Source: Botrimarina mediterranea (GTDB taxonomy: Bacteria > Planctomycetota > Planctomycetia > Pirellulales > Lacipirellulaceae). From it: a stretch of DNA of 64,000 nucleotides. The notes beneath the pieces were generated by a model, which saw only the letters and a program-made list of their open reading frames with translations, was not told where the DNA came from and did no database searches. Shown here piece after piece: positions 29,253 through 44,334 of the stretch (its first letter is position 1; each line of letters begins with the position of its first letter). Location: positions 3,381,363-3,445,362 of the forward strand of contig NZ_CP036349.1 of the NCBI RefSeq assembly GCF_007753265.1. The letters run 5' to 3'. Position numbers and translations under genes: made by a program.

Positions 29253-31238
29253 ATGGCGGGCGCCTACCTCAACGCGCTAGACGGCGTCGTTATCGCGCTC
29301 TACCTGGGCGTGCTCTTGATCCTCGGCGTGTATCTCCAAGGACGCGCCAGCGCCGGCTTGCGGCACTACCTGGTGGGCGACCGCTCGATGCCATGGTGGA
29401 TGCTTGGCGTCTCGGGGGTGATGGACTTCTGGGACCTAGCCGGCTCGATGGTCATCGTCTCGTTCCTCTTCCTCTTGGGGCCGCAGGGGTTGTTCGTCGA
29501 GTTCCGCGGCGGCGCCGTGCTGGTGCTTGCGGTAACGATGCTGTGGACCGGCAAATGGCGGCGGCGTTCGGGCTGTATCACCAGCGCCGAGTGGATGCTC
29601 TTTCGCTTCGGCGACAACAGGGCAGGGCGGGCCGCACAGCTGGCGCGCGTCGTCGCCGGAATCGCCATCACGACGGGGCTGATCGCTTACCTAGCGAAGA
29701 GCGCCGGACTGTTCCTTTCAATGTTCCTGCCGCTAACGCCGGCGCAATGCGCGATGCTGCTCATCGGCACGGCGACCATTTACTCGATGTTCTCGGGCTT
29801 CTACGGCGTGGTGATCATCCACGCGCTGCAGTTCTTGATCGTGCTCATAGCCGCTGCGGCGATCATCTACTTGTGTGTGAGTCAGACGCCCGACTTCGCC
29901 GCCCTGCAGGACGTGGCGGCACAGGTGACCGGCAACCCGGATTGGGGAGCAACGCTCCCCGCGGTGCGCGTCGCCATGCCGGCGGGCTACGAAGCGTATG
30001 AGCCGCTGCTGCTGCTCGCCGGCTTGTATTTGCTGCGTAACGTGCTGTTCGGCATGGGCGCCGGCGACGACCCCAAGTACTTCGCCGCAAAGAGCGACGT
30101 CGATTGTGCAAAGCTGAGCCTGCTGTGGATCACGCTGATCGCCGTGCGCTGGCCGACGATGATGGCGATCGCGGTTCTGGGCGTCGTCGCAGTGGGCGCC
30201 GCATTGCCCGACCCCGCAGCGGTGCGTGAAGCGGTCGCAGCCGTCAACGCCGCCTATCCCGATGGGGATTGGGACCAGATCACGGCTCGCATCGCCGCTT
30301 CTCGTGCGACGGCGCCTACCGAACTCACCAACGATCTCCGGCAGGCATTGGGCGACGACTGGCCAACTCGCCTGCAACTCACCACGCGCCAAGGGACGGT
30401 GAACCCCGAACGGGTCGTCCCCGCCGTGTTGCTCTACGCTATCCCGCCGGGGTTGCGTAGCCTCGTCATCGTTTCGCTGATGGCGGCGGCAATGGCGGGC
30501 TTCGGCGCCTGGATCAATCAAGCGGCCGGACTCTTCACGAACGATTTTTATCTGAAGCACGTGCGTCCCGCGGCGCCGGTGCGCGAGCAGATCAACGTCA
30601 CGTGGGCGTTCATCCTCGCCATCGTCACCGCGGGACTCACCTTTGCTTACTCGGCAACGAACATCAACGACATCTGGTCGTGGATCATCATGGGGCTCGG
30701 CGGCGGGATGATCTTTCCCCAAATGCTGCCGCTCTACTGGCGCCGCTTCAACGGCTTTGGGTACGCGGCCGGCATGATCGCGGGCCTAACAGCTGCGCTC
30801 GCGCAGCGAACCGCCGCCTCAATGCTCCCACCCGTCTACGAAGTGCTGAACGAAGAGTGGTGCATGCTGCTGGTGATCAGTGTCGTCTCGTTGATCGCGG
30901 CGGTCACGGGTTCCTGCCTAACGTCGCCGACACCCGCCGCCGTGCTCCAAGACTTCTTTAATCGGACGAGACCGTTCGGATGGTGGAGGCGCGAGCGCGA
31001 GTTTTTGCCACGGGCACAACAAGCAGCGATCAACGCCGAAAACCTACGTGACCTTCTAGCGCTGCCAGTCGCGCTGACCTACCAAGTGGCGATCTTCTTG
31101 GCGCCGATGCTGCTCGTCGTCCAGAAATGGACCCACGCAGGCGTCTGTTTCGCCGTTGCGCTAGCTGCCTTCGCGATTCTGTATTACGCCTGGCTCGCGC
31201 CGATGGAGCAGACGACGCCGCAAGAAGACCTTCTGTAG
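29253..31238 (+). CDS. Sodium:solute symporter (SSF family)
   Basis: A 661-residue inner-membrane transporter with about 13-15 helices. The N-terminus (VVIALYLGVLLILGVYL, then the RHYLVGDRSMPWWMLGVSGV signature) is typical SSF. Further family features are the FYGVVIIHALQFLIVL helix and the MAAAMAGFGAWINQAAGLF segment around sodium-binding TM8. A hydrophilic insertion (about 320-385, VREAVAAVNAAYPDGDWDQI onward) between helices is longer than in the classic sugar symporters. The location beside GH29 and among glycosidase genes suggests uptake of a released sugar such as fucose or mannose (inference). Its last codons overlap the left arm of a long palindrome. Confidence 0.9.
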   Translation: MAGAYLNALDGVVIALYLGVLLILGVYLQGRASAGLRHYLVGDRSMPWWMLGVSGVMDFWDLAGSMVIVSFLFLLGPQGLFVEFRGGAVLVLAVTMLWTGKWRRRSGCITSAEWMLFRFGDNRAGRAAQLARVVAGIAITTGLIAYLAKSAGLFLSMFLPLTPAQCAMLLIGTATIYSMFSGFYGVVIIHALQFLIVLIAAAAIIYLCVSQTPDFAALQDVAAQVTGNPDWGATLPAVRVAMPAGYEAYEPLLLLAGLYLLRNVLFGMGAGDDPKYFAAKSDVDCAKLSLLWITLIAVRWPTMMAIAVLGVVAVGAALPDPAAVREAVAAVNAAYPDGDWDQITARIAASRATAPTELTNDLRQALGDDWPTRLQLTTRQGTVNPERVVPAVLLYAIPPGLRSLVIVSLMAAAMAGFGAWINQAAGLFTNDFYLKHVRPAAPVREQINVTWAFILAIVTAGLTFAYSATNINDIWSWIIMGLGGGMIFPQMLPLYWRRFNGFGYAAGMIAGLTAALAQRTAASMLPPVYEVLNEEWCMLLVISVVSLIAAVTGSCLTSPTPAAVLQDFFNRTRPFGWWRREREFLPRAQQAAINAENLRDLLALPVALTYQVAIFLAPMLLVVQKWTHAGVCFAVALAAFAILYYAWLAPMEQTTPQEDLL

Positions 31239-31319
31239 GAGGCGTCTCCGACGCCGATTACGCGCACCATTATCTATCGGCACGGTGCGCGTAATCGGCG
31301 TCTCCAGACGCCTCCTACA
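31234..31319. repeat. Long near-perfect palindrome (REP/MITE-like element)
   Basis: Left arm 31234-31268 and right arm 31284-31319 are complementary over about 35 bases with only a small mismatch/insertion at the CC/GGA position, separated by a 15-base loop. The arm reads TGTAGGAGGCGTCT at the outside and CGATTACGCGCACC at the inside. It starts inside the symporter stop codon (31236-31238). No T-run follows, so it is not a standard intrinsic terminator, though it would form a strong hairpin in RNA. The GTAGGAGGCGTCTCCGACGCC form is one I recall as dispersed in planctomycete genomes, which would make it a mobile or REP-like repeat. Confidence 0.75.
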
Positions 31320-31468
31320 AACCGGTGGCTAAGGCCCCGCGGCTGATAAATCTTCGCCAACAAAATCAGCCGGCACGCCTTAGCGTCCGGTTCTTCTAGG
31401 CTCTTGCTGCCGTTGGCAAATAAAATGAAAGAGCTCAAACCGGCGCCATCTCTCCGCGCCCTCCGTGG

Positions 31469-32560
31469 TTAACCAGCAGCGCCCCCAATCGGCCCAGTCG
31501 ACTCGCCTTCAAAGAGCACTAGCTTCCGGGGTTCGTGCAGCAGCTCTTGGTCCCAGCTCTGGCGATCGCCGCCGGCGATGATCCACTCGAGACACTTGGC
31601 GATGAACTTCTCGGCACGTGGGCGTTCGAACGACGTGATCGAGGGGCTGATAAACCGACCGATCCCTTCGTTGTCGATCGTGCAGACCGACAAGTCCCGG
31701 CCGATCTCGACGCATTGCTCCCGCGCCGCCCGGACGACTCCCAGCGCAGCGGGCAGCGTGATGCACAGCACCGACGTGGCGCCACGCCCTTCGGTCGCCA
31801 GCCACTGCCGCGCCGAGGCGATCGCCGACTCAAAGATATTGCCGTCGGTCGTGCAGGGATCGTCGTAAACCGTGCCGGTTATCTCAGGCTGCTTCCCAAT
31901 CCATTCCCGCCAGGCGTCGATCCGGGCCATCGTAATGGCGTTGTGCCCCTGCACGTTGAGGCAATCGATGCGCTCGTGGCCCAGGCCCACCAAGTGATCG
32001 AGTAACTTGCTCGTATGCCGCGGCGGGAACAAGACCACCGACGGGATGCCAAGCTCCGTCAGGTCCTCCGACAACGCGACCACCCCGTTGGCGTTGGCGA
32101 GCAGGTTGGCGATCCACTGCGGGATCGGCTCGGAGTTCGTGACGAGGAACACGCCGTCGAACTGCCGCAACGACTCGGTGATGACCGGATCGTCCCAATG
32201 CAAGTAATTCTGCACCCGGATCCGCGCGTCGTGCGCCCGCGCAACGTGCTCCGATACAAACAGCCATTGCTGAAGGTCCGGCGAGAACGAATCGGGCGCG
32301 AGCGACGGCGTCAAGAACGCAATCTCACGGCCCGCGGCGCTGTCGCCCTCCTGTGACTTGGGTTTGGGGCGCCGATTTGACGCCCGTTCAACGAGCCCCT
32401 TGCGCTCAAGTTCACCGAGCGCCTTACGCAACGTCGCGCGGCTCACGCCGCACTCTTCGGCAAGGTCGCGCTCGGCGGGCAGGCCAGTGCGCGCGTATTC
32501 GCCGTTGGCGATCCGTCGTTCGAGGAAGTCGGTCAGTTGTACGAGTTTCGATCGGCCCAT
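31469..32560 (-). CDS. GntR-headed regulator with LacI/PBP1-type effector domain (AraR-like)
   Basis: A 363-residue transcription factor. The N-terminal winged helix-turn-helix is GntR type (LPAERDLAEECGVSRATLRK and ALGELERKGLV, about 28-58). A short basic linker is followed by a periplasmic-binding-protein fold of the LacI kind (about 80-350): IAFLTPSL, FDGVFLVTNSE, VVALSEDLTELGIPSVVLFP, and SVCTIDNEGIGRFISPSITS near the end. This GntR-LacI arrangement is known from AraR of Bacillus, a repressor released by a sugar. Here the effector is probably a sugar from the surrounding glycan locus (inference). It is transcribed away from the PEP-CTERM gene at 33055, with a composite palindrome between them. 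Confidence 0.9.
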   Translation of the reverse strand: MGRSKLVQLTDFLERRIANGEYARTGLPAERDLAEECGVSRATLRKALGELERKGLVERASNRRPKPKSQEGDSAAGREIAFLTPSLAPDSFSPDLQQWLFVSEHVARAHDARIRVQNYLHWDDPVITESLRQFDGVFLVTNSEPIPQWIANLLANANGVVALSEDLTELGIPSVVLFPPRHTSKLLDHLVGLGHERIDCLNVQGHNAITMARIDAWREWIGKQPEITGTVYDDPCTTDGNIFESAIASARQWLATEGRGATSVLCITLPAALGVVRAAREQCVEIGRDLSVCTIDNEGIGRFISPSITSFERPRAEKFIAKCLEWIIAGGDRQSWDQELLHEPRKLVLFEGESTGPIGGAAG

Positions 32561-32797
32561 TTCATGCCAGCGTCACCGTTACAGCCAAGCCGCGAGGCCG
32601 CCCGGGGTGCGGATTCGCAAAGCGAAGAGTACGGACCCACCCACCACCAATCAAGGCGACGACGCCCGCCGATGACGTTCCGTGTCGGCGCCGGCCTTTC
32701 AGCCTAATCATCGCGAGGCCCGCCGCGATCGCCTTTCAGAACTCGCCTTCGGGCGATCTAGCCGCCTACCAACCGCCTCAGAGCGATACGTCTTTTT

Positions 32798-32843
32798 TAC
32801 CAATATTGGTCCACACCTGTTGCAATGTAGACCAATTTTGGTA
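32798..32843. promoter_or_regulatory. Composite operator: two ACCAAWWTTGGT sites in a 46-base inverted repeat
   Basis: TACCAATATTGGTCCACA (32798-32815) and TGTAGACCAATTTTGGTA (32826-32843) are inverted copies matching at 16 of 18 positions around a 10-base spacer. Each arm contains its own 12-base palindrome, ACCAATATTGGT (perfect, 32799-32810) and ACCAATTTTGGT (32831-32842), with centres 32 bases apart, about three helical turns. It lies between the GntR/LacI-type regulator and the PEP-CTERM operon, the place expected for a shared operator. Assignment to that regulator is inference from position. Confidence 0.65.
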
Positions 32844-32847
32844 TGTT
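32820..32847 (+). promoter_or_regulatory. Candidate sigma-70-type promoter for the PEP-CTERM group
   Basis: TTGCAA at 32820-32825 and TATGTT at 32842-32847 are 16 bases apart and each match four of six consensus positions. The spacer is filled by the right palindromic site, so a bound repressor would cover it. The start of the downstream gene is about 200 bases away. Planctomycete promoter consensus is poorly defined, so this is tentative. Confidence 0.35.
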
Positions 32848-33054
32848 CGTAGTTGTTGGATCGTTTCCGCCGACAAGAGTGGCGTTGCTCAAGGGGGGTC
32901 ACCCGTTGCTGACCGCCCGGTAAGGAACGTCCGACACGCTCTTCACTCCTCTGTTCACGCTGTGCTGTTCAGGCCGTCCAGGTCTTGGCGGCTTTCTAAT
33001 CTGCGTCCCTTATCTGCGGCCTCATTGTCACTCGACTCTTGAAGGAGGGTTCTG

Positions 33055-34503
33055 ATGCGTAGCGCAACTACGTCGGTAGCGTTGATCGCCCTGATGCTCA
33101 TCGGCCTTTCGCCGGCACAAGCGCAGATCGAATGGATCGGCGCCAACAGCGACGATGCCCTGGACGGGACCAACTGGGACGGCGGCGTCCTTCCCGGCGT
33201 CAGTGATAGCGTCGTCTTCCGCAACGGTGGCGATTCGAATCCGCTGGCGGACTTCGGCGCCGCGGACGTGGAGTGGGCCCACATGCTCATGAATCACGCC
33301 GACGTTGGTACGACACTAACCGGCGCCGGCACGATCACCTTGAACACGCCCGGCGCCGGGGTCGATATCGGCGTCAAGAGCTTCGAGACTCAGGGCGGCG
33401 AACGTCTCTCGGTGATCCACCCGAACATCATCGCCAACGGCGTGATGGAAGCCCGCAACGGCCACAACGTTGTCTTCGAAGGGGACGTCACTTCCTACAC
33501 GCTGCACTCGTACAACAACTCGGTCTTCACGTTTAACGGCAACTACACCCAAACGGCCTACGACGGCAGCGAGTTCTTCACCGGCAACCACGAGGGGAGT
33601 TCGATCGTCTTCAACGGCGGCCTCAATCTCGACCGTCCCGCGTTCTACGGCGACCTCGGCATCCGCAACGGCCTCACCGTCGCCTTCGGCCCCGATGTCG
33701 TGCTCACCAAGACCGGGCCCTTCGAGACAACACCCGGCCTCGGAACAGTGAACCTCTACAACCAGTCCACCATCCGCCTCGACGGCGACAACGCGCTCGA
33801 CGCCAACACCGACCTCTTCTCTCGTGACGGCGGCGGCGTTGGTGAGAATACGCTTGATCTCAACGGCTTCAGCACGACGGTCGAGTTCATCGCCACGGTG
33901 CCCGACGCCGGCCCCACCAGTTTTGTCGTCGATTTCGGCGAACAAGCCGGCGCAAATACCTTTCGCTGGCTCGCGTCGCACTGGATGCCGGGCAACTACA
34001 AGATCACGAACTTCGAGGTCGGCGTCGATACGCTCGAACTCGGCGAGCTGGGATCGTTCTTCTGGACCGCCGAGGACACGACGACCGAAGGCGGCGGCTC
34101 GCCCGACATCGAGGTCAAGAAGTCGCAGATCACGATCAACGGCCTCCCCTACGCGGCCTACGACCCGCTGAAGACCGACGCCTACTGGACGCTCGTCGAT
34201 CCCACCGTTAGCCGTGCAATCGAGGTCTTCAACGCCCCGCTCTTCGGCGACTTCAACGACGACGGCGAAGTGAACGCGGCTGACTACACCGTCTTCCGTG
34301 ACAACCTGGACGGCAACTCTGCAGCGCTGAATGGCAACGGATCGGGCGCCGCCACAGTCGGTCCCGCCGACTACCAGCTCTGGACGCAGAACTACGGCCG
34401 GACGAGCGGCTCGTCCGTTGCGATCCCCGAGCCCGGCGCGATGCTCCTCGCTATTACGGGCGTGGCGTGGTGCGGACGCTCGCGCCGTCGAACCTCCGTG
34501 TGA
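33055..34503 (+). CDS. PEP-CTERM protein with beta-helix-like body and dockerin-like motif
   Basis: A 482-residue secreted protein. A signal peptide (VALIALMLIGLSPAQAQ) is followed by WIGANSDDALDGTNWDGGVLPGVS, the 'xWxG...NWxxGxxP' opening of many autotransporter-like or surface beta-helix proteins. The central part is beta-rich and Asn/Gly-rich. [20 protein letters not shown] (from about 398) is a dockerin-like half-repeat, and the C-terminus has IPEP, a short helix and RSRRR. A strong AGGAGG stands six bases before the ATG. It is the first gene downstream of the composite operator and resembles the next gene over its whole body, so the two look like a tandem duplication. No enzymatic motif recognised. 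Confidence 0.85.
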   Translation: MRSATTSVALIALMLIGLSPAQAQIEWIGANSDDALDGTNWDGGVLPGVSDSVVFRNGGDSNPLADFGAADVEWAHMLMNHADVGTTLTGAGTITLNTPGAGVDIGVKSFETQGGERLSVIHPNIIANGVMEARNGHNVVFEGDVTSYTLHSYNNSVFTFNGNYTQTAYDGSEFFTGNHEGSSIVFNGGLNLDRPAFYGDLGIRNGLTVAFGPDVVLTKTGPFETTPGLGTVNLYNQSTIRLDGDNALDANTDLFSRDGGGVGENTLDLNGFSTTVEFIATVPDAGPTSFVVDFGEQAGANTFRWLASHWMPGNYKITNFEVGVDTLELGELGSFFWTAEDTTTEGGGSPDIEVKKSQITINGLPYAAYDPLKTDAYWTLVDPTVSRAIEVFNAPLFGDFNDDGEVNAADYTVFRDNLDGNSAALNGNGSGAATVGPADYQLWTQNYGRTSGSSVAIPEPGAMLLAITGVAWCGRSRRRTSV

Positions 34504-34572
34504 TCCGTCCTCTTGATGCTGCTGCTTGTCTTGTCCTCGCTTTCGCTTGCCTTGTCCGAGGTAGAAGGTCTC

Positions 34573-35715
34573 ATGATTGGCTTCTGGTGCAAATGCTCTT
34601 TGGTCGTGGCTTTAGGACTTGTCGCTAGTCCGTCCCAGGCCGTGACGACGACATGGCTCGGCGTCACGTCGGGCGACGTCAGCGACCCAACGAACTGGAG
34701 CGCCGGCGTCCCCGGCGCTGCCGACGAAGCGATCGTCGTGACCGCGCCGAACGCTCCCGATTTGCTGGGTAGTTCGGTCACTTGGGGCAAGTTGACGCTC
34801 AACGGCGCCACGGACATCGCCGACAGCCTCGGCGGGGCGATCCTCAACTTGGCTAGCGCGGACATCGCGCTGTTCTCCGGAGGCGCCCACAGTTCGACGA
34901 TCGCACCGGCGCTCAATGTCACCGGAAAGATTCAGACGAATGGCGAGCACAACGTCGCCTTCAACGGCCCTGTTACCGCGGCCAAGGTCGAATCCTTCGG
35001 CACAGCAGTCGCCAGCTACAACAACTCACTCACGCTTACGGACAGCTTCGTCACGATCGGCGCCGACGCGGAGATCGTGATCAACAACACCCTCAATTGG
35101 AACTTCGCCGGCGAGAAGGGCTACAACGGCGGCGGGGGCGCCTTCGTTATCGGCGCCGGCTCGACGGTCAACTTGGGCATCTTCAACCTGTTCGATCAGG
35201 CGACGGTCCGCACCGACGCGGACAACGTCCTCACCGGCGCCACCGACCTCTGGGGCCGGCACGCCAACTCGACACTCGACCTCAACGGCTACAGCCAAGG
35301 CGTCGAGTTCCTCGCGACGAACGCGGGCTCGAACATGGTTATCGACTTCGGCGCAACGCCGGGCGCCAACACCCTGGTATGGGACGCGTCCTTCAATAGC
35401 GACGGCGCGTACGACGTCGTCAACTTCGAGGCCGGAATCGATACGCTCGAGTTCGGCCAGTACGGCAACGGCCTCGGCTTCAACGACCCCACGCTGCTCA
35501 GCCAGATCACTGTCAATGGCGCCGCCTACTCGGCGTCGAATCCCGGCGGCGGCCTGAGTTGGTGGAACGCTATCGCGACGCCCAATGCCGGCGACGATCC
35601 CGGCCGCCAGATCGCCGTCTATTACGCGGCCGTTCCTGAACCAGCCGCGCTGGCGATGGCCGTCGGCGCGGCGTTGGTTGCCAGCATGCGTCGATCGAAC
35701 AGGGCCTTAGTGTGA
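34573..35715 (+). CDS. PEP-CTERM protein, paralogue of the upstream gene, without dockerin-like motif
   Basis: About 380 residues, secreted; signal peptide CSLVVALGLVASPSQA. The body matches the upstream gene in order: TWLGVTSGDVSDPTNWSAGV at the front, NGEHNVAFNGPVTAAKVES versus NGHNVVFEGDVTSYTLHS, STLDLNGYSQGVEFLAT versus NTLDLNGFSTTVEFIAT, then VIDFGATPGANTLVWDAS and NFEAGIDTLEFGQYG. It lacks the dockerin-like motif and goes directly to VPEP, an alanine-rich helix and MRRSNRALV. The frame is open from 34513, but the ATG at 34573, behind GAAGG, starts a good signal peptide. The 60 bases before it read SLALSEVEG-like in this frame and may be a dispersed intergenic repeat. Function unknown; display or binding is likely. 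Confidence 0.82.
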   Translation: MIGFWCKCSLVVALGLVASPSQAVTTTWLGVTSGDVSDPTNWSAGVPGAADEAIVVTAPNAPDLLGSSVTWGKLTLNGATDIADSLGGAILNLASADIALFSGGAHSSTIAPALNVTGKIQTNGEHNVAFNGPVTAAKVESFGTAVASYNNSLTLTDSFVTIGADAEIVINNTLNWNFAGEKGYNGGGGAFVIGAGSTVNLGIFNLFDQATVRTDADNVLTGATDLWGRHANSTLDLNGYSQGVEFLATNAGSNMVIDFGATPGANTLVWDASFNSDGAYDVVNFEAGIDTLEFGQYGNGLGFNDPTLLSQITVNGAAYSASNPGGGLSWWNAIATPNAGDDPGRQIAVYYAAVPEPAALAMAVGAALVASMRRSNRALV

Positions 35716-35825
35716 GGAGAGAGTGGGGTGAACTCCCGCCAAAGGCGAGGCGCCGCAGGCTTGGCGCTGGCGTCTTCCAGCGCCAAGCCGTGCCGCCAAC
35801 CGAGGCCTCGTAGATACCGAGAAGT

Positions 35826-38800
35826 ATGAACTTCCATCGCAAAGCAACGAGAGGCAAACGCTGGCGATACGCCGCCCGGGGCTGTCGGTTGCTAGTCGCG
35901 GCGCTGGCGATGGCTTGCTCACCTGCTGTCGCTTCGTTGTTTCAACACCTGGACGCCTCCGCGCCGGGCTCACTCGTCGACCTGGGCGGACAGCTCACCT
36001 GGATCGACCTGTCAGGCAACGGTCACAACGCCATCGACACCTCCGCAGGGTCGGGATCGGTGTCGCTGTCGTACGACGACTCCATCTTCCCCACCGGCCT
36101 CCCGAGTGTGCGTTTCAACGGCGCCGGCTGGAACAACTACGGTCGGCTTCAATTGCTCAGTCCCTCTGCATCGGACGCCGTGCTCAACCAGGCGGGCCCG
36201 AACCCGACGGGCTTCAGCATGTTGGTCGTCGCGAAAGGCGACGCGGGCGCCGCGGCGTCGGACTGGAACGATCTGCTCGGCAATACCACCGACGTCGGCG
36301 ATGGCGCCTTCTTGATGCGCTACAACGCCGGCAACGGCGTCTTTCAGGGCGCGTTGGGCGGCCTGACAGTGCAGAACAATTACCAGGGACAGAACAACTA
36401 CAGCGGCGCGGCCACGGTTCTTGCCTTCAACTACGATCCGTCCCAACCAAATGGCGAGATCACGCTGGCGAGCTCGCTCAACGGCTATAGCCAAACCTTC
36501 AACCTCAGCAGTCAGGCCTCGCGCGATTTCTCGAACAACGACCCGCTCACCCTCGGCAAGGCCTTCGATACGATCGGCCGGCTATTCGTCGGCAACATCG
36601 GCGAAGTCAAGCTTTACGACGCCGCATTGACGTCACAAGAGTTCGCCTCCGGGATAACGGCCCTTGACCGCAAGTGGAACGCCAGCCCCGATGGCCGACT
36701 CGATCTGGTCATCGACCGCGCGACCGGCGCCGCGACGCTACGCACCTACGGTTCGACGAGCATCGACCTAGCAGGGCTGCGGCTCAGAAGTGAGACGGGA
36801 TCGCTCGACCCCAGCGACTGGCTCTCGATCACCGACCACTACGACGCGAACAACGGCGGCGATTTCGACGCCGTGAGCCCGTGGCTCAAACTCAGCCAGA
36901 AGGCGACGGACCTGAGCGAGGCGACCTTCGGCGTCGGCACGGTTCAGCCGGGCGAGGTCCTGGAGCTTGGTTCAGTGTTCCGGTTGGGCGCCAACGAGGA
37001 CATCGAAGCCGAGTACGCCGACCCCCTCACCCAGAAAGCCAAGCACGTTCACGTGCGATACGCCAACGCAGCGCCCGCCGACCTGCTGCCCGGCGACTTC
37101 AACAACGACGGGTCCGTCAACGCCGCGGACTACACCGTCTGGCGTGACAACCTCTGCGCCGAGGTCTCTCTACCAAACGAAGTGGTTTCGAACGGACGAA
37201 TCAGCAACGATGACTACCTGACTTGGCGCGACGCCTACGGATCAACAGCAGCACCTGCCCAGCTAGCCGTTGCGGTTCCGGAGCCCGTTGCCGTCTCGAT
37301 GTTGGTCTTGCCCGCCATCATGGCGTGTGGGATTCGGCTCAGTCGGCTCAGCCGTGCCACGGGGATTGGCGCCCTCCTGCTGGCGACATTGATGCTAGGC
37401 GCCCCCCGTGAAGCTGACGCCGTCGAAGCGACCGTCGGCGTCTACTACTACCCTTGGTGGGACACTCACGACTGGGACGACTCGCTCCGCGCACGGATGC
37501 TCCCTGAGGACCACGCGCCGCTCGCGGGCTACACGCCGAGCTCGGACGCCGACTTGATCGCCGAGCACATCAATCAAAGCCATCGGGGCAACATCTCGCT
37601 GTGGGCGACCAGCTGGTGGGGTCCCGGCACGATCGAGGACGTGGTCCTCCAGCAGAACATCCTCACGCATCCCCGTGCGAGCGAGTTGACCTACGCGATT
37701 CACTATGAATCGACCGGCAGGTTCAACGGCTTTGAAACGCCCGACTTCTCGAACCTCGTCACCGACTTCGAGTACCTAGCCGAGAACGTCTTCTCTGACC
37801 CCAACTACCACCGCATCGACGGCCGGCCGGTGGTCTTTATGTACGTCAGCCGGGCCTACTTCAATAACCCCGAAGCACGCCAAGCCCTCGACGACGCCCG
37901 CCAGGCGTTGATCACCACGCACGGGTACGACCCCTACGTGGTGGGCGACGAGGTCTTTGACGCAGGCTTCAACAGCGGTCGGGCCGCCGAGTTCGATGCG
38001 ATGACAACCTACGACGTCTTCGCCATGTCGGGGTTCAGCTCGGGTACGGTGTCGCAAGGAGACATCCAGCAGGCCAACTCGAAGTACGCCGCTGCCGCCG
38101 CGGCGGGCGCCACGGTCATCCCCGCCATCACCCCCGGCTACAACGACAAGGCCGTCCGCGACGGCAACCGTGCGACGGGACGCTACTTCACGGGAGAAAC
38201 CATCGAGCAGGCCGGGAGCGTGTTCACGGCGCTGATCGACGACGCCGCCGGGCCTAACCTTGACGCGTCGACAGGCAACTTGCTGATGGTCAACTCGTTC
38301 AATGAGTGGCACGAAGACACCCAGATTGAGCCGACGGTCGTCGCTCCACCGAGCTCCACCGACAACTCACAGACGGGCACAGACCTGACCACCGGCGTGA
38401 CCTACGAGGGCTACGGCTACAAGTACCTCGACCTGCTCCGCACCCACACCACCGAAGGCGGACCGGTCCTCATCGACGGCGACGCCGACTTCGACGGCGA
38501 CCTCGACAGCGACGATGTCGTCGCTTTTGTCGAGGCGTGGGGCGCCGAATACCTGCACGAAGGCGTCCGCGTCGGCGGGTACGCCAGCCGCACCTCGATG
38601 CCTGATTTCAACTACGACGGCGTCGTCGATTTCGTGGACTGGTTTTACGTCCGCGCCAACGTCCCCGACGCCGCGTCGGCGGACCTGCTGGCGTTGCTCG
38701 AGGTTCCCGAACCCGACGCCGGCTTGCTCATCGGCGTCCTGATCGTGACGGCTGCGATGAGACTATCGACGCGCAGCGTAATTGAACGTGATTCGTGGCG

Positions 38801-38861
38801 AACCATGGTCGTCGTCCAACGCGACGGCCGGCACTGCCCCCCAGGGGAGAGGCAAGAATGA
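35826..38861 (+). CDS. Fusion of LamG/dockerin-like PEP-CTERM protein with GH99-type endo-alpha-mannosidase and second PEP-CTERM
   Basis: One uninterrupted frame of 1011 residues. Part one: signal peptide (to about 38), a LamG/concanavalin-like domain (LDASAPGSLVDLGGQLTWID opening, about 40-280), a lamin-tail-like segment, a dockerin-like motif ([20 protein letters not shown] from 423), then VPEP at 484-487 with a hydrophobic helix and Arg residues (CGIRLSRLSR), a complete PEP-CTERM. Part two starts at once with what looks like a signal peptide (GIGALLLATLMLGAPREADA). The GH99-type domain runs from about 533 (VGVYYYPWWDTHDWDD), with the catalytic pair E827/E830 in NEWHEDTQIEP. Dockerin-like repeats (886-947) and a second VPEP at 960-963 follow. 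GH99 enzymes cleave alpha-mannosides internally. The stop overlaps the next start (ATGA). Whether it is processed into two proteins is unknown. Confidence 0.85.
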   Translation: MNFHRKATRGKRWRYAARGCRLLVAALAMACSPAVASLFQHLDASAPGSLVDLGGQLTWIDLSGNGHNAIDTSAGSGSVSLSYDDSIFPTGLPSVRFNGAGWNNYGRLQLLSPSASDAVLNQAGPNPTGFSMLVVAKGDAGAAASDWNDLLGNTTDVGDGAFLMRYNAGNGVFQGALGGLTVQNNYQGQNNYSGAATVLAFNYDPSQPNGEITLASSLNGYSQTFNLSSQASRDFSNNDPLTLGKAFDTIGRLFVGNIGEVKLYDAALTSQEFASGITALDRKWNASPDGRLDLVIDRATGAATLRTYGSTSIDLAGLRLRSETGSLDPSDWLSITDHYDANNGGDFDAVSPWLKLSQKATDLSEATFGVGTVQPGEVLELGSVFRLGANEDIEAEYADPLTQKAKHVHVRYANAAPADLLPGDFNNDGSVNAADYTVWRDNLCAEVSLPNEVVSNGRISNDDYLTWRDAYGSTAAPAQLAVAVPEPVAVSMLVLPAIMACGIRLSRLSRATGIGALLLATLMLGAPREADAVEATVGVYYYPWWDTHDWDDSLRARMLPEDHAPLAGYTPSSDADLIAEHINQSHRGNISLWATSWWGPGTIEDVVLQQNILTHPRASELTYAIHYESTGRFNGFETPDFSNLVTDFEYLAENVFSDPNYHRIDGRPVVFMYVSRAYFNNPEARQALDDARQALITTHGYDPYVVGDEVFDAGFNSGRAAEFDAMTTYDVFAMSGFSSGTVSQGDIQQANSKYAAAAAAGATVIPAITPGYNDKAVRDGNRATGRYFTGETIEQAGSVFTALIDDAAGPNLDASTGNLLMVNSFNEWHEDTQIEPTVVAPPSSTDNSQTGTDLTTGVTYEGYGYKYLDLLRTHTTEGGPVLIDGDADFDGDLDSDDVVAFVEAWGAEYLHEGVRVGGYASRTSMPDFNYDGVVDFVDWFYVRANVPDAASADLLALLEVPEPDAGLLIGVLIVTAAMRLSTRSVIERDSWRTMVVVQRDGRHCPPGERQE

Positions 38862-39913
38862 AGACGTTATCGAACGCAACGAAGGATGTTAGCCGCTCCG
38901 ACAGCGGCGGATACCGACTCGGAGGCTTTACGCTCGTCGAGCTGCTGGTGGTGATCGCCATCATCGGCATCCTGGTGGCCCTGCTGCTGCCGGCGGTGCA
39001 AGCGGCCCGTGAAGCGGCGCGGCGTACGCAGTGCGTCAACCAGATGAAGCAGATCGGCCTCGGGGCGCTGAACTATGAATCCACGAAGGGGGAGTTTCCC
39101 CCCGGTGCGATGGCCTACGGCACATGGGGAGTTCTCCCTGCCAACCGGCCTCAAGTCCCTTTTCTGTGCCCCAACGAAGACTGCAACGGCACTAACTGGG
39201 CGATCGAACTATTGCCGTTCCTTGAGCAGCAGCAGATCTACGACTGGTACGACCAAACTGAGCACAATTTCGAAGAAGGCGATCCCGACGGCGACGGCCT
39301 CTACAACCAGCGTGTGCGTGACATCGAATTCGCAATGATGAAGTGCCCCTCCGACTTCGCGGCAAACAACCTCGACCAAGTGCCCGCGCCTGGTTCCTAC
39401 AAAGCGATGGCAGGCGTCATCACACAACTACCAGGCGGAGCGTGGATCAATTGGTCGAGCCCCAAGGGGCCTCCCAGCAATCCAGCGATGGCCGTCATTA
39501 AGCAAAACTACCGCTATCGCGGGCTGCTACACGCTGTCGGCGCCTACAACGTCAAGCCCGAGAAGATGAAGAACGTGATCGATGGCGCCAGCAAGTCGTT
39601 AATGATCGGTGAGTACCACTGGGAAGGTGACGGCGACCCTGAACCAGTATGGTGGGCCGTGACCCATCGAAACTTCAATAAAGGAGAGGCGTTTGCCGAC
39701 CCACTCTTGCGTTCAGGCAACCTGGATCACTGTAGAAGGAACATCGTCACGGCGCCTGAGTCCTGGGCGTGCGACCGCACCTACGGCTCAATGCACGCTG
39801 GCGACGGCGGCAACTGGCTACGAGTCGATGGTTCCGTGGCGTTCATCACGACTTCGCTCGATGGCCTACTCTACGAAGCGATGGCCACCATCGCCGGGGA
39901 GGATGGCATCTGA
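38858..39913 (+). CDS. DUF1559 pseudopilin-like protein
   Basis: About 351 residues. A 24-residue leader with charged residues ends in YRLGG, followed by [20 protein letters not shown] and [18 protein letters not shown], the pilin-type processing site and helix. The C-terminal part carries SLMIGEYHWEG and a late H...DG element (HAGDGGNWLRVDG, spacing ten rather than the usual nine). GGAGAGG stands five bases before the ATG at 38858, which overlaps the stop of the GH99-type fusion gene in ATGA. Its own stop overlaps the next ATG (TGATG). The tight coupling indicates stoichiometric production with the PEP-CTERM/GH99 protein and the lipoprotein. Function of DUF1559 proteins is unproven. Confidence 0.92.
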   Translation: MKTLSNATKDVSRSDSGGYRLGGFTLVELLVVIAIIGILVALLLPAVQAAREAARRTQCVNQMKQIGLGALNYESTKGEFPPGAMAYGTWGVLPANRPQVPFLCPNEDCNGTNWAIELLPFLEQQQIYDWYDQTEHNFEEGDPDGDGLYNQRVRDIEFAMMKCPSDFAANNLDQVPAPGSYKAMAGVITQLPGGAWINWSSPKGPPSNPAMAVIKQNYRYRGLLHAVGAYNVKPEKMKNVIDGASKSLMIGEYHWEGDGDPEPVWWAVTHRNFNKGEAFADPLLRSGNLDHCRRNIVTAPESWACDRTYGSMHAGDGGNWLRVDGSVAFITTSLDGLLYEAMATIAGEDGI

Positions 39914-40401
39914 TGTATCGATTCAATCAATACAGCGTTCTCGCTAGCGCGATGCTCACTCTGCTTGGCGTCACGACCGGCTGCGGCGACAGCAAGTTCA
40001 AGTTTGCGCCGGTCGAAGGCCGCGTGCTGCTGGACGGCCAGCCCGTCGCCAAAGCGCGTGTTGTATTTATGCCACAGTCCCGCAATGAGGACGGCGAAAC
40101 AGGACCGTATTCAGGCGGCAAGACGGACGCCGATGGACGATACACCCTTACGTCCACTGACGAAGAATCCCGTCTCGGCGCCGTTGTCGGACCTCACCGC
40201 ATTGTCATCAGCACGAAGCGGGCGCATCGCCATCCCACCAAGCTGGACGTAGAAATTATCGACGCACCGGAAGTTATCCCCGCCGTCTACACCAACTACC
40301 GACTCTCGCCGCTGACGTTCGACGTTCCTCCGGGCGGTTCGACCTCTGCTGATTTCTCACTCGAAAGCCAAGCCAAACAGTACCGCCGTATCGGCTACTG
40401 A
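39913..40401 (+). CDS. Small lipoprotein with carboxypeptidase-regulatory-like beta-sandwich
   Basis: A 162-residue protein. The N-terminal signal ends in a lipobox (LGVTTGC), so it is probably anchored to a membrane facing the periplasm. The rest (VEGRVLLDGQPVAKARVVFM, GGKTDADGRYTLTST, GPHRIVIST) is the transthyretin/CNA-B-like sandwich very common in planctomycete lipoproteins that sit downstream of DUF1559 genes. The ATG at 39913 shares a base with the preceding TGA, and GGAGG lies ten bases before. The frame is open upstream to 39769, inside the DUF1559 gene, but a start there would destroy the lipobox signal. Role unknown; a scaffold for the pseudopilin or PEP-CTERM proteins is possible. 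Confidence 0.88.
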   Translation: MYRFNQYSVLASAMLTLLGVTTGCGDSKFKFAPVEGRVLLDGQPVAKARVVFMPQSRNEDGETGPYSGGKTDADGRYTLTSTDEESRLGAVVGPHRIVISTKRAHRHPTKLDVEIIDAPEVIPAVYTNYRLSPLTFDVPPGGSTSADFSLESQAKQYRRIGY

Positions 40402-40413
40402 AGACGAACAACG

Positions 40414-42789
40414 ATGATGAGCGACACCTCGATGCTTCACGATGAACCCTGCACACGCCGAAACGCTCGACAAGTCGTATCGCTCGTCGCCGTCTTTACG
40501 CTGATGGCTTCGGCGGCTATCGCTGACAACACCCACTACGTCAATCCGTTCATCGGTACGGGGGGCCACGGGCACACCTTCCCCGGCGCCACGACGCCCT
40601 ACGGCATGGTGCAGCTCAGCCCCGATACGCGGACGCTCGGCTGGGACGCGTGCGCGGGTTATCACCATTCGGATAGCTCGATCCTCGGCTTCAGCCACAC
40701 GCATCTCAGCGGCACGGGCATCGGCGACCTGGGCGATGTTCTCTTCATGCCGGCGGCGGGCGATGCCCAAGTCGTCCCCGGGCCCGAGGATGACCCCGAC
40801 GCCGGCTACCGCAGCCGCTTCATCCATGACAACGAGCGCGCCGAGCCCGGCTACTACCGCGTTCATCTAGCCGACGAGGACATCGACGCCGAGCTCACCG
40901 CCACGCCCCGCGCCGGCTTCCATCGCTACCACTACCCCGCAAGCAAGCCCGCGCAGCTGGTGATCGACCTCGCCCACACGATCCACGGGCACCATAACCC
41001 GCGCACCGAACTGAAGGTTATCAACGACCGCGAGATCGTCGGGCTCAAGCAGTCGCGAGGCTGGGCCGAGCACCACTACGTCTACTTCCACGCCAAGTTT
41101 AATCGGCCCTTCACCGCGAAGCTCTACGCGAACACGCAGGAGAAGCAGGGCGACAGCGTCTCGGCCGAAGGCGGCGCGCAAGCCGTGCTGACTTTCGAAG
41201 CAGGCGATGATGTCGTGTTAGCGAAGGTCGGCATCTCGGCGGTCGATTATGACGGCGCGCGGAAGAACCTCGAGGCCGAGATCGCCGATTGGGATTTCGA
41301 GAAGGTCCGTAGCGACGCCAAGCTGGCTTGGCAGAAGCAACTCGACAAAATCAACGTTAAGGGCGGCGCGCCGGACCAGCGCGTCATCTTCTACACGGCC
41401 CTCTACCACACGGCGATCAGCCCCTACCTATTCTCCGACGCCGACGGACGCTACCGCGGCGTCGATCAAGAGATCCACACGGCGACCGACGAGCCGGTCT
41501 ACACGGTCTTCTCGCTGTGGGATACCTTCCGGGCGTTCCACCCGCTGCTGACGATCACCGACCCCGATCGCAACGCCGCGTTTATTCGCACATTGCTGAC
41601 GCACTACGACCAAGGCGGCGTCCTGCCGAAGTGGGAACTGGCGGGCAACTACACCGGCACGATGATCGGCTACCACGCCGTCCCGGTGATCGTCGACGCC
41701 TACGTGAAAGGGCGCCGCGACTTCGATGTCGAGAAGGCGTACCGGGCTGTTGTCGCTTCGGCGCACTACGACCGTGACGTGGCCCCGCAGGCGTCTGACG
41801 CCGTACGCACGGCGCTCGTCCCGGCCGCCAAGAGATTCAATGACGAGCTCGGCTTCATCCCCAGCGACCAAGAGAACGAGTCGGTCTCCCAGGCGCTCGA
41901 GTTCGCCTACAACGATTGGTGCATCGCCCAGTTCGCGACGGCGCTCGGCAAATCGGACGACACCGAGAAGTACTTCGAGCGGGCTCGTCGCTACCGCCAG
42001 TACTTCGACACCGAGACCGGCTTCATGCGTGGACTCAACACCGACCGCACGTGGTCCACGCCCTTCAACCCAAGATTCTCCGAGCACCGCCGCGACAACT
42101 ACACCGAAGGCAACGCCTGGCAATGGACATGGTTCGCGCCGCATGACGTGCCGGGTCTGGTTGATCTCATGGGAGGTCCGGCGCCGTTTATCAAGAAGCT
42201 CGACCAGCTCTTCACCGAAGACTCGACGATCGATGGCGCCAACAGCTCGGTCGATATCTCCGGCCTCATCGGGCAGTACGCCCATGGCAACGAGCCGAGC
42301 CACCACATCGCCTACCTCTACAACTATGTCGGCCAGCCGTGGAAGACGCAGCGGCTGGTGGATCAGATCCTGACGACGCTCTACCACAACGACCCCGACG
42401 GGCTCTCCGGCAACGAAGACTGCGGCCAGATGTCGGCGTGGTACTTGCTCAATGCGATGGGCTTCTATCAAGTTTCACCGGGTGACCCGACTTACTCGAT
42501 CGGCCGGCCCTTGTTCGATGAAGTCACGATCCAACAAGAGAATGGCAAGACCTTCACCCTCCGCGCCATCAACAATTCGCCGGAGAACCGTTACGTCCAA
42601 TCGGTGAAGCTAAACGGCGACGGCCTATCCGCCCCGTTTTTCAGACACGCTGCGATCGTGGAAGGCGGCGTCCTGGAGCTCGAAATGGGACCCTGGCCAG
42701 AGAAACGGCATCTGGCGGCGAAGGCAGGCGCCGGCGCGACGGACGGGCCGTTGCGTGACGAAAATCCGCAACTCGGAGGCAACGATTAG
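40414..42789 (+). CDS. GH92 alpha-mannosidase, secreted
   Basis: A 791-residue calcium-dependent exo-acting alpha-mannosidase. A signal peptide (VVSLVAVFTLMASAAIA) ends near residue 37. The N-terminal beta-sandwich has YVNPFIGTGGHGHTFPGATT, PYGMVQLSPDTRTLGWDACA and GFSHTHLSGTG. The (alpha/alpha)6 barrel carries YHTAISPYLFSDADGRYRGV, YTVFSLWDTFRAFHPLLT, GNAWQWTWFAPHD and GLSGNEDCGQMSAWY, where E668 is in the position of the GH92 catalytic acid. It starts 12 bases after the lipoprotein stop, so it belongs to the same operon. With the GH99-type protein upstream it suggests endo/exo degradation of alpha-mannan or N-glycan high-mannose chains. Confidence 0.95.
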   Translation: MMSDTSMLHDEPCTRRNARQVVSLVAVFTLMASAAIADNTHYVNPFIGTGGHGHTFPGATTPYGMVQLSPDTRTLGWDACAGYHHSDSSILGFSHTHLSGTGIGDLGDVLFMPAAGDAQVVPGPEDDPDAGYRSRFIHDNERAEPGYYRVHLADEDIDAELTATPRAGFHRYHYPASKPAQLVIDLAHTIHGHHNPRTELKVINDREIVGLKQSRGWAEHHYVYFHAKFNRPFTAKLYANTQEKQGDSVSAEGGAQAVLTFEAGDDVVLAKVGISAVDYDGARKNLEAEIADWDFEKVRSDAKLAWQKQLDKINVKGGAPDQRVIFYTALYHTAISPYLFSDADGRYRGVDQEIHTATDEPVYTVFSLWDTFRAFHPLLTITDPDRNAAFIRTLLTHYDQGGVLPKWELAGNYTGTMIGYHAVPVIVDAYVKGRRDFDVEKAYRAVVASAHYDRDVAPQASDAVRTALVPAAKRFNDELGFIPSDQENESVSQALEFAYNDWCIAQFATALGKSDDTEKYFERARRYRQYFDTETGFMRGLNTDRTWSTPFNPRFSEHRRDNYTEGNAWQWTWFAPHDVPGLVDLMGGPAPFIKKLDQLFTEDSTIDGANSSVDISGLIGQYAHGNEPSHHIAYLYNYVGQPWKTQRLVDQILTTLYHNDPDGLSGNEDCGQMSAWYLLNAMGFYQVSPGDPTYSIGRPLFDEVTIQQENGKTFTLRAINNSPENRYVQSVKLNGDGLSAPFFRHAAIVEGGVLELEMGPWPEKRHLAAKAGAGATDGPLRDENPQLGGND

Positions 42790-42937
42790 CCACCCGGCGT
42801 GAGATAAGCCACCGCTTCAGCCCCACGCGGACGCTTGCCCACCACCCCAAGAAAGTGACTATCATGTCAGCCAGCAGCGTGTCGCTGCGTCGCCTCGTCC
42901 TTCAGCTACTCATCAACGCCAGAGAACCGAGCCCCCG

Positions 42938-44260
42938 ATGAACGACTCACGCCGGCAGTTCTTAAAGCAATCCGCCGCCGCGGCTTCTGTCGTCCCCTAC
43001 TTCCTGAGCAGCCAGCCCGCCTTCGCGAATGCGTCGGCGAACGACCGCCCGCGGATGGCGTGCATCGGCGTCGGCAGCCAGGGCATGCACGACTCGGGTC
43101 AGCACGCCCGCTTCGCCGACATCGTGGCCGTGTGTGACGTAGACGCGAACCACGCCGAACGCGCCCGTGTCGCCGAGAACATCGGCCGCGGCAAGGCGAA
43201 GGCCTACAGCGATTATCGCAAGGTTCTCGACCGCTCCGACGTCGACGTGGTGAGCATCGTCACGCCCGACCACTGGCACGTGAAGATCGCGATCGAGGCG
43301 CTCGAAGCCGGCAAGCACGTATTCTGTCAAAAGCCGCTGACGCTGACGCTCGAGGAGAACCAGCTCGTACGCGCAGCGGCGAAGAGGCATCCCGATCGCG
43401 TCTTCTTCATCGGCACGCAGCAGCGAGCCGACTCACGTCGCTTCCTCCGCGCCGTCAACATGGTGCAGAAGGGGCTGCTCGGCGCCATCAAGAAGGTGAC
43501 GATCGGCATCGATGGTTCTCCCACCGGCGGGCCGTTCCCCGTCGAAGAGGTCCCGAAGGAACTCGACTGGGAGATGTGGCTGGGCCAGGCGCCGCTGGTT
43601 GACTACCGCGCGCGGCGTTGCCACTACGAGTTTCGCTGGTGGTACGAGTACTCGGGCGGCAAGTTTACCGACTGGGGCGCGCACCATATCGACATCGCCA
43701 GCTGGGCCATCGGCCAAACGAGCGAAGGGCAGGGCCCCGTCGAGATCGATGGCTCGAGCGCGAAACACCCCGTCGAGTTCGTCGATGGCATGCCCGCCGT
43801 TGATGACAGTTACAACACGTCGCACGACTTCTCCGTGAAGTGTCGTTTTGAGAACGGCATTGAATTCGACGTCACCAGCCGTGAGCGCAATGGCATCCTC
43901 TTCGAGGGCTCGCGCGGCCGGCTGTTCGTCAATCGGGAGAAGATCACGGGCGTTCCCGTCGAAGAAGACTGGGACGCCGGCATGTACGGACGTGAAGAAC
44001 TCACCGAGTTGTACAAGGGCAAGCCCCACGAGGGACACTGGGAGAACTTCTACCGCACCCTGCGTGAAGGGGGCCTGCCTGTCTCCGACTTGTACTCGCA
44101 CCTACAGGTCATGAACACCTGCCATCTGTGTGCGATCGCTTCGAGGCTGGGTCGCAAGATTACTTGGGACCCCAAGAGCGAGCGCATCGTGGGCGACGAC
44201 ACTGCCGCCGGCCTAGCATCGCGCGAGCAGCGAAAGGGCTACGAAGTCCCTCGGGTCTAA
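42938..44260 (+). CDS. Gfo/Idh/MocA family oxidoreductase with Tat signal
   Basis: A 440-residue NAD(P)-dependent dehydrogenase-like protein. A twin-arginine leader (SRRQFLKQSAAAASVVPYFL) predicts export. The Rossmann fold begins RMACIGVGSQGMHDSG, followed by ADIVAVCDVD, DVVSIVTPDHWHVKIAIEAL and GKHVFCQKPLTLTLEEN; the last is the family's EKP motif with Gln for Glu, as is common in exported planctomycete members. The second domain has RWWYEYSGGKFTDWGAHHID, resembling glycosyl-transforming enzymes. Some exported Gfo/Idh/MocA proteins act on glycosides with tightly bound NAD, so a glycosidase-like oxidation-elimination reaction is conceivable. It follows GH92 by 148 bases on the same strand. 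Confidence 0.93.
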   Translation: MNDSRRQFLKQSAAAASVVPYFLSSQPAFANASANDRPRMACIGVGSQGMHDSGQHARFADIVAVCDVDANHAERARVAENIGRGKAKAYSDYRKVLDRSDVDVVSIVTPDHWHVKIAIEALEAGKHVFCQKPLTLTLEENQLVRAAAKRHPDRVFFIGTQQRADSRRFLRAVNMVQKGLLGAIKKVTIGIDGSPTGGPFPVEEVPKELDWEMWLGQAPLVDYRARRCHYEFRWWYEYSGGKFTDWGAHHIDIASWAIGQTSEGQGPVEIDGSSAKHPVEFVDGMPAVDDSYNTSHDFSVKCRFENGIEFDVTSRERNGILFEGSRGRLFVNREKITGVPVEEDWDAGMYGREELTELYKGKPHEGHWENFYRTLREGGLPVSDLYSHLQVMNTCHLCAIASRLGRKITWDPKSERIVGDDTAAGLASREQRKGYEVPRV

Positions 44261-44334
44261 AGGCCGATCGCAGTCACGGCGTCATCAATCCTTACGAACC
44301 GTAGAACTCCCTGCGGTAACGCTCACCCTGCGCA

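Follow-up and report, generated by a model that had tools for sequence, protein, structure and literature searches.

The window analysed here is a stretch of 64,000 nucleotides from the planctomycete Botrimarina mediterranea (family Lacipirellulaceae; assembly GCF_007753265.1, contig NZ_CP036349.1, positions 3,381,363 to 3,445,362), and our subject is a single gene in it, at 35826..38861 on the plus strand. An initial annotation had described this gene as a complete PEP-CTERM protein fused in frame to a GH99-type enzyme, so that a sorting signal and a signal peptide come to lie in mid-protein. We confirmed the observation that one frame holds two PEP-CTERM-type proteins. No stop codon interrupts its 1011 codons, and it contains, in order, a signal peptide, a lectin-like region, a dockerin-like repeat, a VPEP motif with a helix, a basic turn, a signal-peptide-like helix, a GH99 domain and a terminal VPEP. 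Its features are as follows (window coordinates; unit 1 and unit 2 are the two proteins).

35826..38861, plus strand: single open reading frame of 1011 aa with two PEP-CTERM-type surface proteins per chain; full-length orthologue (L002/L031) in G003, a genome of the same genus
35826..35933, plus strand: N-terminal signal peptide of unit 1, ending A-V-A before S37 (by inspection)
36291..36641, plus strand: weak laminin-G/ConA-lectin-like region of unit 1 (PF13385, E 0.0017, below the Pfam cut-off)
37089..37151, plus strand: weak dockerin type I-like repeat of unit 1 (PF00404, E 0.0092, below the Pfam cut-off)
37275..37286, plus strand: internal VPEP, residues 484-487, candidate exosortase site (from sequence; VPEA in the G003 orthologue)
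37287..37334, plus strand: first junction helix, residues 488-503, putative stop-transfer segment running from outside to inside (from hydropathy)
37335..37355, plus strand: basic turn RLSRLSR, residues 504-510, between two AlphaFold helices
37356..37421, plus strand: second signal-peptide-like helix with its c-region (residues 511-532), which ends in A-D-A before V; candidate signal peptidase I site at 37421/37422
37521..38345, plus strand: GH99 catalytic domain of unit 2, including E827 and E830 (PF16317, E 1.6e-20; PDB 4acy/4acz, E 1.2e-15)
38703..38858, plus strand: terminal VPEP signal, long-tailed, with 52 aa counted from V960 to the C-terminus (13.8 bits, below the cut-off)

The junction between the two units occupies residues 484-532, which read VPEP, VAVSMLVLPAIMACGI, RLSRLSR, ATGIGALLLATLMLGA and PREADA in succession; VEATVGVYYYPWW follows and leads into the GH99 domain. 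The internal copy has the layout of a PEP-CTERM signal, with VPEP at 484-487, a helix at 488-503 and basic residues R504, R507 and R510, although 524 residues follow the motif and it does not lie at the extreme C-terminus. Two excised segments gave no match to PF07589 at E values up to 10, nor was there an NCBIfam match; the terminal signal itself scored 13.8 bits with PF07589, for which the cut-off is 20.7. Because Pfam and NCBIfam recognition failed, the internal signal is identified by its layout and by the class to which it belongs. The segment that follows has the layout of a type I signal peptide: RLSRLSR as the n-region, a hydrophobic core at 511-526, and P-R-E-A-D-A before V533. Its basic n-region consists of the same residues as the basic cluster of the PEP-CTERM tail. 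The mid-protein signal peptide is thus supported in its n-region, core and AxA-type site, with an n-region that is shared rather than its own, and the internal sorting signal in its layout but not by profile matches. AlphaFold modelled unit 1 of the 1011-aa chain poorly (mean pLDDT 45.7) and the GH99 part better; it placed helices at 488-505 and 510-524, with a short turn between them, at low confidence.

The remaining landmarks of the initial annotation (the hydrophobic helix and Arg cluster after VPEP 484-487, E827-W-H-E830 in the GH99 domain and a second VPEP at 960) were all found. The GH99 match lies above the Pfam cut-off and spans residues 566-840. E827-W-H-E830 is invariant in a nine-member GH99 alignment and aligns with FNEWHE of the solved endo-alpha-mannosidase 4acz and its near-twin 4acy. 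We take E827 and E830 to be the catalytic residues. Domain homology and the presence of both acidic residues place unit 2 in GH99, from whose solved members it differs in being the second unit of a fused protein. The terminal PEP stretch of 52 aa exceeds the usual length, and the frame ends in ATGA (38858-38861), overlapping the ATG of the next gene.

Orthologues were searched in 59 genomes, the own genome and 58 relatives. G003 contained a near full-length, stop-free match with 61-62% identity, so that a single conserved frame spans both units, as a polyprotein reading demands. Its junction reads VPEARASMVGALAMVLTASFVRRIPNTLIGSAALVLASLSLTAPASA, with QDATVG directly after the candidate cut. 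A recent loss of the stop codon, which the initial annotation had offered as the simpler alternative, was rejected, since the gene is fused in this second species at 62% identity. A sequencing or assembly error that deleted a stop codon was also rejected on this orthologue; we found nothing in its favour, fused genes are numerous in single-contig as well as draft genomes, and we give such an error practically no credence. The two parts are not always separate in orthologues: they are fused in G003, and GH99 is a separate gene with a hydrophobic, signal-peptide-like start in all seven further loci fetched from the family (L003-L009). Given these separate genes, the GH99 fusion likely arose within the genus. 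Synteny with G003 is partial. Within a 20-kb stretch, counterparts were found for the symporter, the GntR-type regulator, the fused gene, the DUF1559 gene, the next small gene and the second GH99-like gene, and none at E 1e-15 for the GH92 gene, the oxidoreductase and the two PEP-CTERM genes just upstream.

The fusion belongs to a recurrent class, a point that the initial annotation missed, with nine junctions known in the own genome and up to nine per frame elsewhere. Of 83 PEP-CTERM matches in the own genome, 33, chosen mostly for long frames, were inspected (two in frames of >500 aa, at 1661640 and 5279936, were left out), and PF07589 scored above cut-off at internal positions in six of these. 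Behind each of the six come a basic cluster, another hydrophobic segment and an AxA-like site. Two further junctions and that of the window gene bring the known number to nine. In the loci L143 (1062-1086) and L157 (918-941), too, the stretch that best matches PF07589 was internal.

Fetched loci were scanned by motif and hydropathy rules, which yielded 60 distinct junctions at first and 85 in the end. The 85 lie in 57 frames of 28 planctomycete genomes, 25 of them in the window's family (24 without the doubtful locus L152) and the others being G068, G279 and G361. One junction was present in 42 frames, two in 10, three in 2, four in 2 and nine in one, numbers that are lower bounds as many loci were cut. 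[VI]PEP occurred at 82 of the 85 junctions. Of the 54 frames with a closed 3' end, 50 have a PEP motif within their last 45 residues; of the 35 with a closed 5' end, 30 begin with a signal-peptide-like segment. The frame with nine internal junctions, one of them doubtful, is 2531 aa long (L139, G068:C91) and comes from a draft genome of another family, where the frame is open at the 5' end of its contig.

Profiles were built from 20 junctions (A1) and then from 51 (A2), and they detected further junctions at the level of genus, family, order and phylum. Matches were found in 14 of 43 genomes of the family (those in G002 and G026 were not full-length and stop-free), in 12 of 196 of the order and in 9 of 392 of the phylum, where only G361, G279 and the own genome had full-length, stop-free matches. 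Among 288 genomes of the phylum to which a Pontiellaceae genome belongs (Kiritimatiellota in the NCBI taxonomy), 25 had a match; two of 45 rows were full-length and stop-free (L225 and L227), and the other 43 were partial or crossed a stop. These two loci, in G590 and G664, carry the same order of PEP, basic cluster and signal peptide, which is rare in that phylum. With strict E-values, the surveys scored only a fraction of the candidates in each genome and hence under-count, and many of their rows are sequences from which the profile was built; conversely, the motif scan did not recover one full-length profile row, G361:C226. Since strict searches found few cases outside it, the class looks concentrated in Lacipirellulaceae, under-counting outside notwithstanding. 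Recurrence in dozens of related genes makes the junction look like a recurring way to make several surface proteins per translation, not a sequencing accident. Conservation of the frame in another species and this repeated occurrence also place the fusion beyond chance.

The junctions share a common geometry. In the 60-junction set the distance from PEP to the candidate cut, chosen by our own score, had a median of 47 aa (quartiles 45-49), about the length of one PEP-CTERM signal and one signal peptide that share a basic cluster. Across the junctions, the loop between the helices had a median of 10 aa. Of the 85 junctions, 63 have an exact AxA behind the second helix; in 17 polytopic proteins used as a control, this holds for 23 of 138 helices (Fisher p 8e-18). 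Within the 60-junction set, AxA was found after the second helix in 46 and after the first in 16, and it was present in 69 of 119 N-terminal signal peptides, a control that depends on a crude start finder. In addition, Exosortase_EpsH (PF09721) was detected at three loci in the own genome, the best of which (a 310-aa frame, L051) contains ACSG, NAAR and HDMAG, matching the Cys/Arg/His motifs given in passages of PMC1569441.

Running from outside through a helix, a basic turn and a second helix back to the outside, the layout fits the positive-inside rule, from which we infer that PEP and AxA are on the outer face. The whole chain would be made by one ribosome, and unit 1 exported via its N-terminal signal peptide. 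The PEP-CTERM helix would then stop transfer, leaving the Arg-rich turn in the cytoplasm, and export would resume at the second hydrophobic segment, serving as a fresh signal sequence, which would bring unit 2 to the outside as well. On the outer side, signal peptidase I would cleave behind the AxA that closes the second helix, and exosortase at the PEP that precedes the first. The predicted products are a lectin-like protein and a GH99 enzyme in a fixed 1:1 ratio, together with a short hairpin peptide left in the membrane. Layout, the narrow PEP-to-cut length, the excess of AxA and the exosortase motifs favour cutting by both enzymes, and on balance we lean towards the window gene being a two-unit member of recurrent planctomycete PEP-CTERM polyproteins, Sec-exported and joined by hairpins of about 47 aa that signal peptidase I and exosortase cut. 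The earlier interpretation is thus partly supported: its suggestion that one product could yield two surface proteins or a membrane hairpin stands as a possibility, with cleavage predicted from the layout.

Adjacent hydrophobic helices with a short basic loop also resemble a stable hairpin, as does the AlphaFold model with its two low-confidence helices, and the gene product could be a single uncut membrane protein with two outer domains on a two-helix anchor. A plain hairpin would need neither the excess of AxA sites nor the near-universal PEP, and we consider this arrangement improbable.

Persistence of the fused state could be followed for one cargo, which we label DRxYxFG after the motif with which it begins. 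A search of 43 family genomes gave 82 matches in 24 genomes, 63 of them in frames of at least 900 aa (median 1412), 18 in frames below 600 aa and one in a frame of 745. A PEP-type junction was present just upstream in 23 of 30 inspected loci (22 PEP and one VPEG) and absent in 7. A tree of the 30 loci required three changes between fused and separate states, compared with shuffled means of 6.3 and 6.4; one label in it, that of L216 as standing alone, is doubtful because this locus lies within a 1395-aa frame, apparently as the first unit. Because so few changes are needed, the fused state of this cargo is read from the tree as old, inherited and persisting across many genera. The cargo is expanded in G015 (15 matches), G023 (16) and G016 (12), many of its copies being in frames of 1300-1660 aa, and it can stand in the middle or at the end of a chain (L190, L155) and perhaps also at its start (L216).

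Coding evolution was compared in four orthologous pairs. From PEP to cut, dN/dS was 0.29-0.39, with 0.09-0.30 in upstream units and 0.07-0.27 in downstream units; dS is high (2.9 in the window junction), which makes the single values rough. Pooled over 198 codons, junction pN/pS was 0.58 (95% interval 0.48-0.69). By these measures, the junctions evolve as coding sequence, as expected if they are translated and constrained.

Such genes could nevertheless be effectively two, joined by neutral stop loss, with unit 2 made mainly by internal initiation near its signal peptide. In-frame ATGs are present at residues 492 and 499 of the window gene and in a similar place in G003, so internal initiation is possible in this gene; an ATG also stands right before the second signal peptide in the L102/L149 pair, and in-frame PEP-CTERM neighbours with an intervening stop do exist. 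Against this, only 7 of 60 junctions had a start with Shine-Dalgarno-like (SD-like) upstream sequence. The loop alone contained no ATG in 67 of 85 junctions and no ATG, GTG or TTG in 30; from PEP to the second helix, the corresponding numbers were 44 and 6. L026 has none of the three codons in that longer stretch, yet the part downstream of its junction has a dN/dS of 0.07 relative to L118. Junctions of this kind, lacking starts and followed by a conserved part, suggest that read-through of the junction is the sole source of at least some downstream units. The long-lived fusion of the DRxYxFG cargo likewise argues against two effective genes, an explanation to which we assign a low probability.

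Several observations weigh against processed polyproteins as we propose them. The 85 junctions are no census, since loci were fetched partly because they matched the rules, and L144 and L152 (short frames without a terminal PEP) may be false, as may the junction at 1967 of L139. A small polytopic control for AxA (8 of 16 helices) gave p 0.06, which is not significant. Amino-acid identity in the junctions was 0.34-0.55, a range expected for hydrophobic signals and also for weak constraint. Some ATG, GTG or TTG is present between PEP and the second helix in 79 of 85 junctions, so that internal initiation is possible for most. An in-frame signal-peptide-like segment past the stop was found for 10 of 158 separate terminal PEP-CTERM genes, several of which look like chance. 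Some of the 10 are in-frame neighbours, the two genes just upstream of the fused gene among them, so one stop-codon loss easily makes such fusions; loss of a stop between neighbours is thus an easy origin, and some fusions may be near-neutral. That DRxYxFG fusions persist so long speaks against this for many of them. As to the window gene in particular, the G003 orthologue carries VPEA in place of its VPEP; of 160 terminal signals in the fetched loci, a single one shows this variant and 158 have P at the last position.

This substitution bears on whether both enzymes act. Only the signal peptidase I site may work in the window gene and its orthologue, which would free the GH99 unit at its N-terminus, to proceed to its own terminal PEP signal, and leave unit 1 anchored by the hairpin, the internal PEP having decayed. 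An AxA-type site is indeed present in both (ADA before V in the window, ASA before Q in G003), whereas the internal signal has no Pfam match and its otherwise near-invariant P is lost in G003. The window copy nonetheless retains VPEP, the helix and the basic turn, and [VI]PEP is almost universal in the class; we regard cleavage by signal peptidase alone as unlikely, albeit the most serious of the alternatives. Within the two-enzyme processing that we prefer, the exosortase step appears less certain in the window gene, because of the missing Pfam match and the VPEA of the orthologue, and is the weaker half of the proposal.

Passages of Haft et al. 2006 (PMC1569441) place PEP-CTERM regions near the extreme C-terminus, with fewer than ten more residues in 87%, and suggest that the very few with much longer tails are perhaps non-functional. 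The genes described here share with PEP-CTERM/exosortase (EpsH) sorting the PEP motif, helix, basic cluster, N-terminal signal peptide and an EpsH-type exosortase in the genome; in contrast to the system as those passages present it, their internal copies are many, conserved and each directly before a new signal peptide. The terms PEP-CTERM and polyprotein (also with exosortase) were not found together in a full-text literature search, outside which most subscription papers lie, and no described case of internal PEP-CTERM polyproteins was found in the literature searches among the matches listed.

Bacterial precursors split by signal peptidase at an internal signal are known, for example the cytochrome b/c1 precursor of Bradyrhizobium, in which no sorting signal or exosortase is known to be involved. 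Likeness to this type lies in the single chain, the internal signal sequence and the second exported protein; the present genes differ in their serial units and PEP-CTERM cargo. In structural polyproteins of the flavivirus type, helices that stop transfer alternate with signal helices, and the signal-peptidase sites lie on the outer face. The alternation of helices is similar, but the two systems are unrelated, and here export is bacterial, with an exosortase-type site at each boundary.

The most far-reaching interpretation, which we hold to be somewhat better than an even bet, is that Planctomycetota, and rarely a second phylum of the PVC group, make serial surface polyproteins of two to about ten units with hairpin joints of about 47 aa for exosortase and signal peptidase, which would allow cell-surface enzymes, binding proteins and scaffold modules to be exported together, and in fixed ratios, out of a single translation. 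If this is true, bacteria would use a layout best known from viruses for serial surface proteins, and the reading of many long planctomycete "PEP-CTERM proteins" would change. Such genes would also offer a natural substrate for direct tests of exosortase cleavage, because cutting would yield three separate products: the freed unit, the hairpin and the unit that follows.

The neighbourhood of the fused gene (window 29253-45699) includes an SSF symporter, a GntR/LacI-like regulator, a DUF1559 protein with an N-methylation motif, a GH92 gene and a Gfo/Idh/MocA oxidoreductase, as well as a second GH99-like gene at 44320-45699 that scored below threshold (30.3 bits; cut-off 33). This set of neighbours suggests that the locus likely serves alpha-mannan or N-glycan utilisation. 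PEP-CTERM genes with a same-frame signal-peptide-like stretch past the stop were seen at L039 (minus strand), L105, L115 and L141. Directly upstream of the fused gene, two PEP-CTERM-type genes (33055-34503 and 34513-35715) lie in the same frame, with 9 bases from the stop of one to the next listed start; this pair (33055-35715) is what the precursor of such a fusion would look like.

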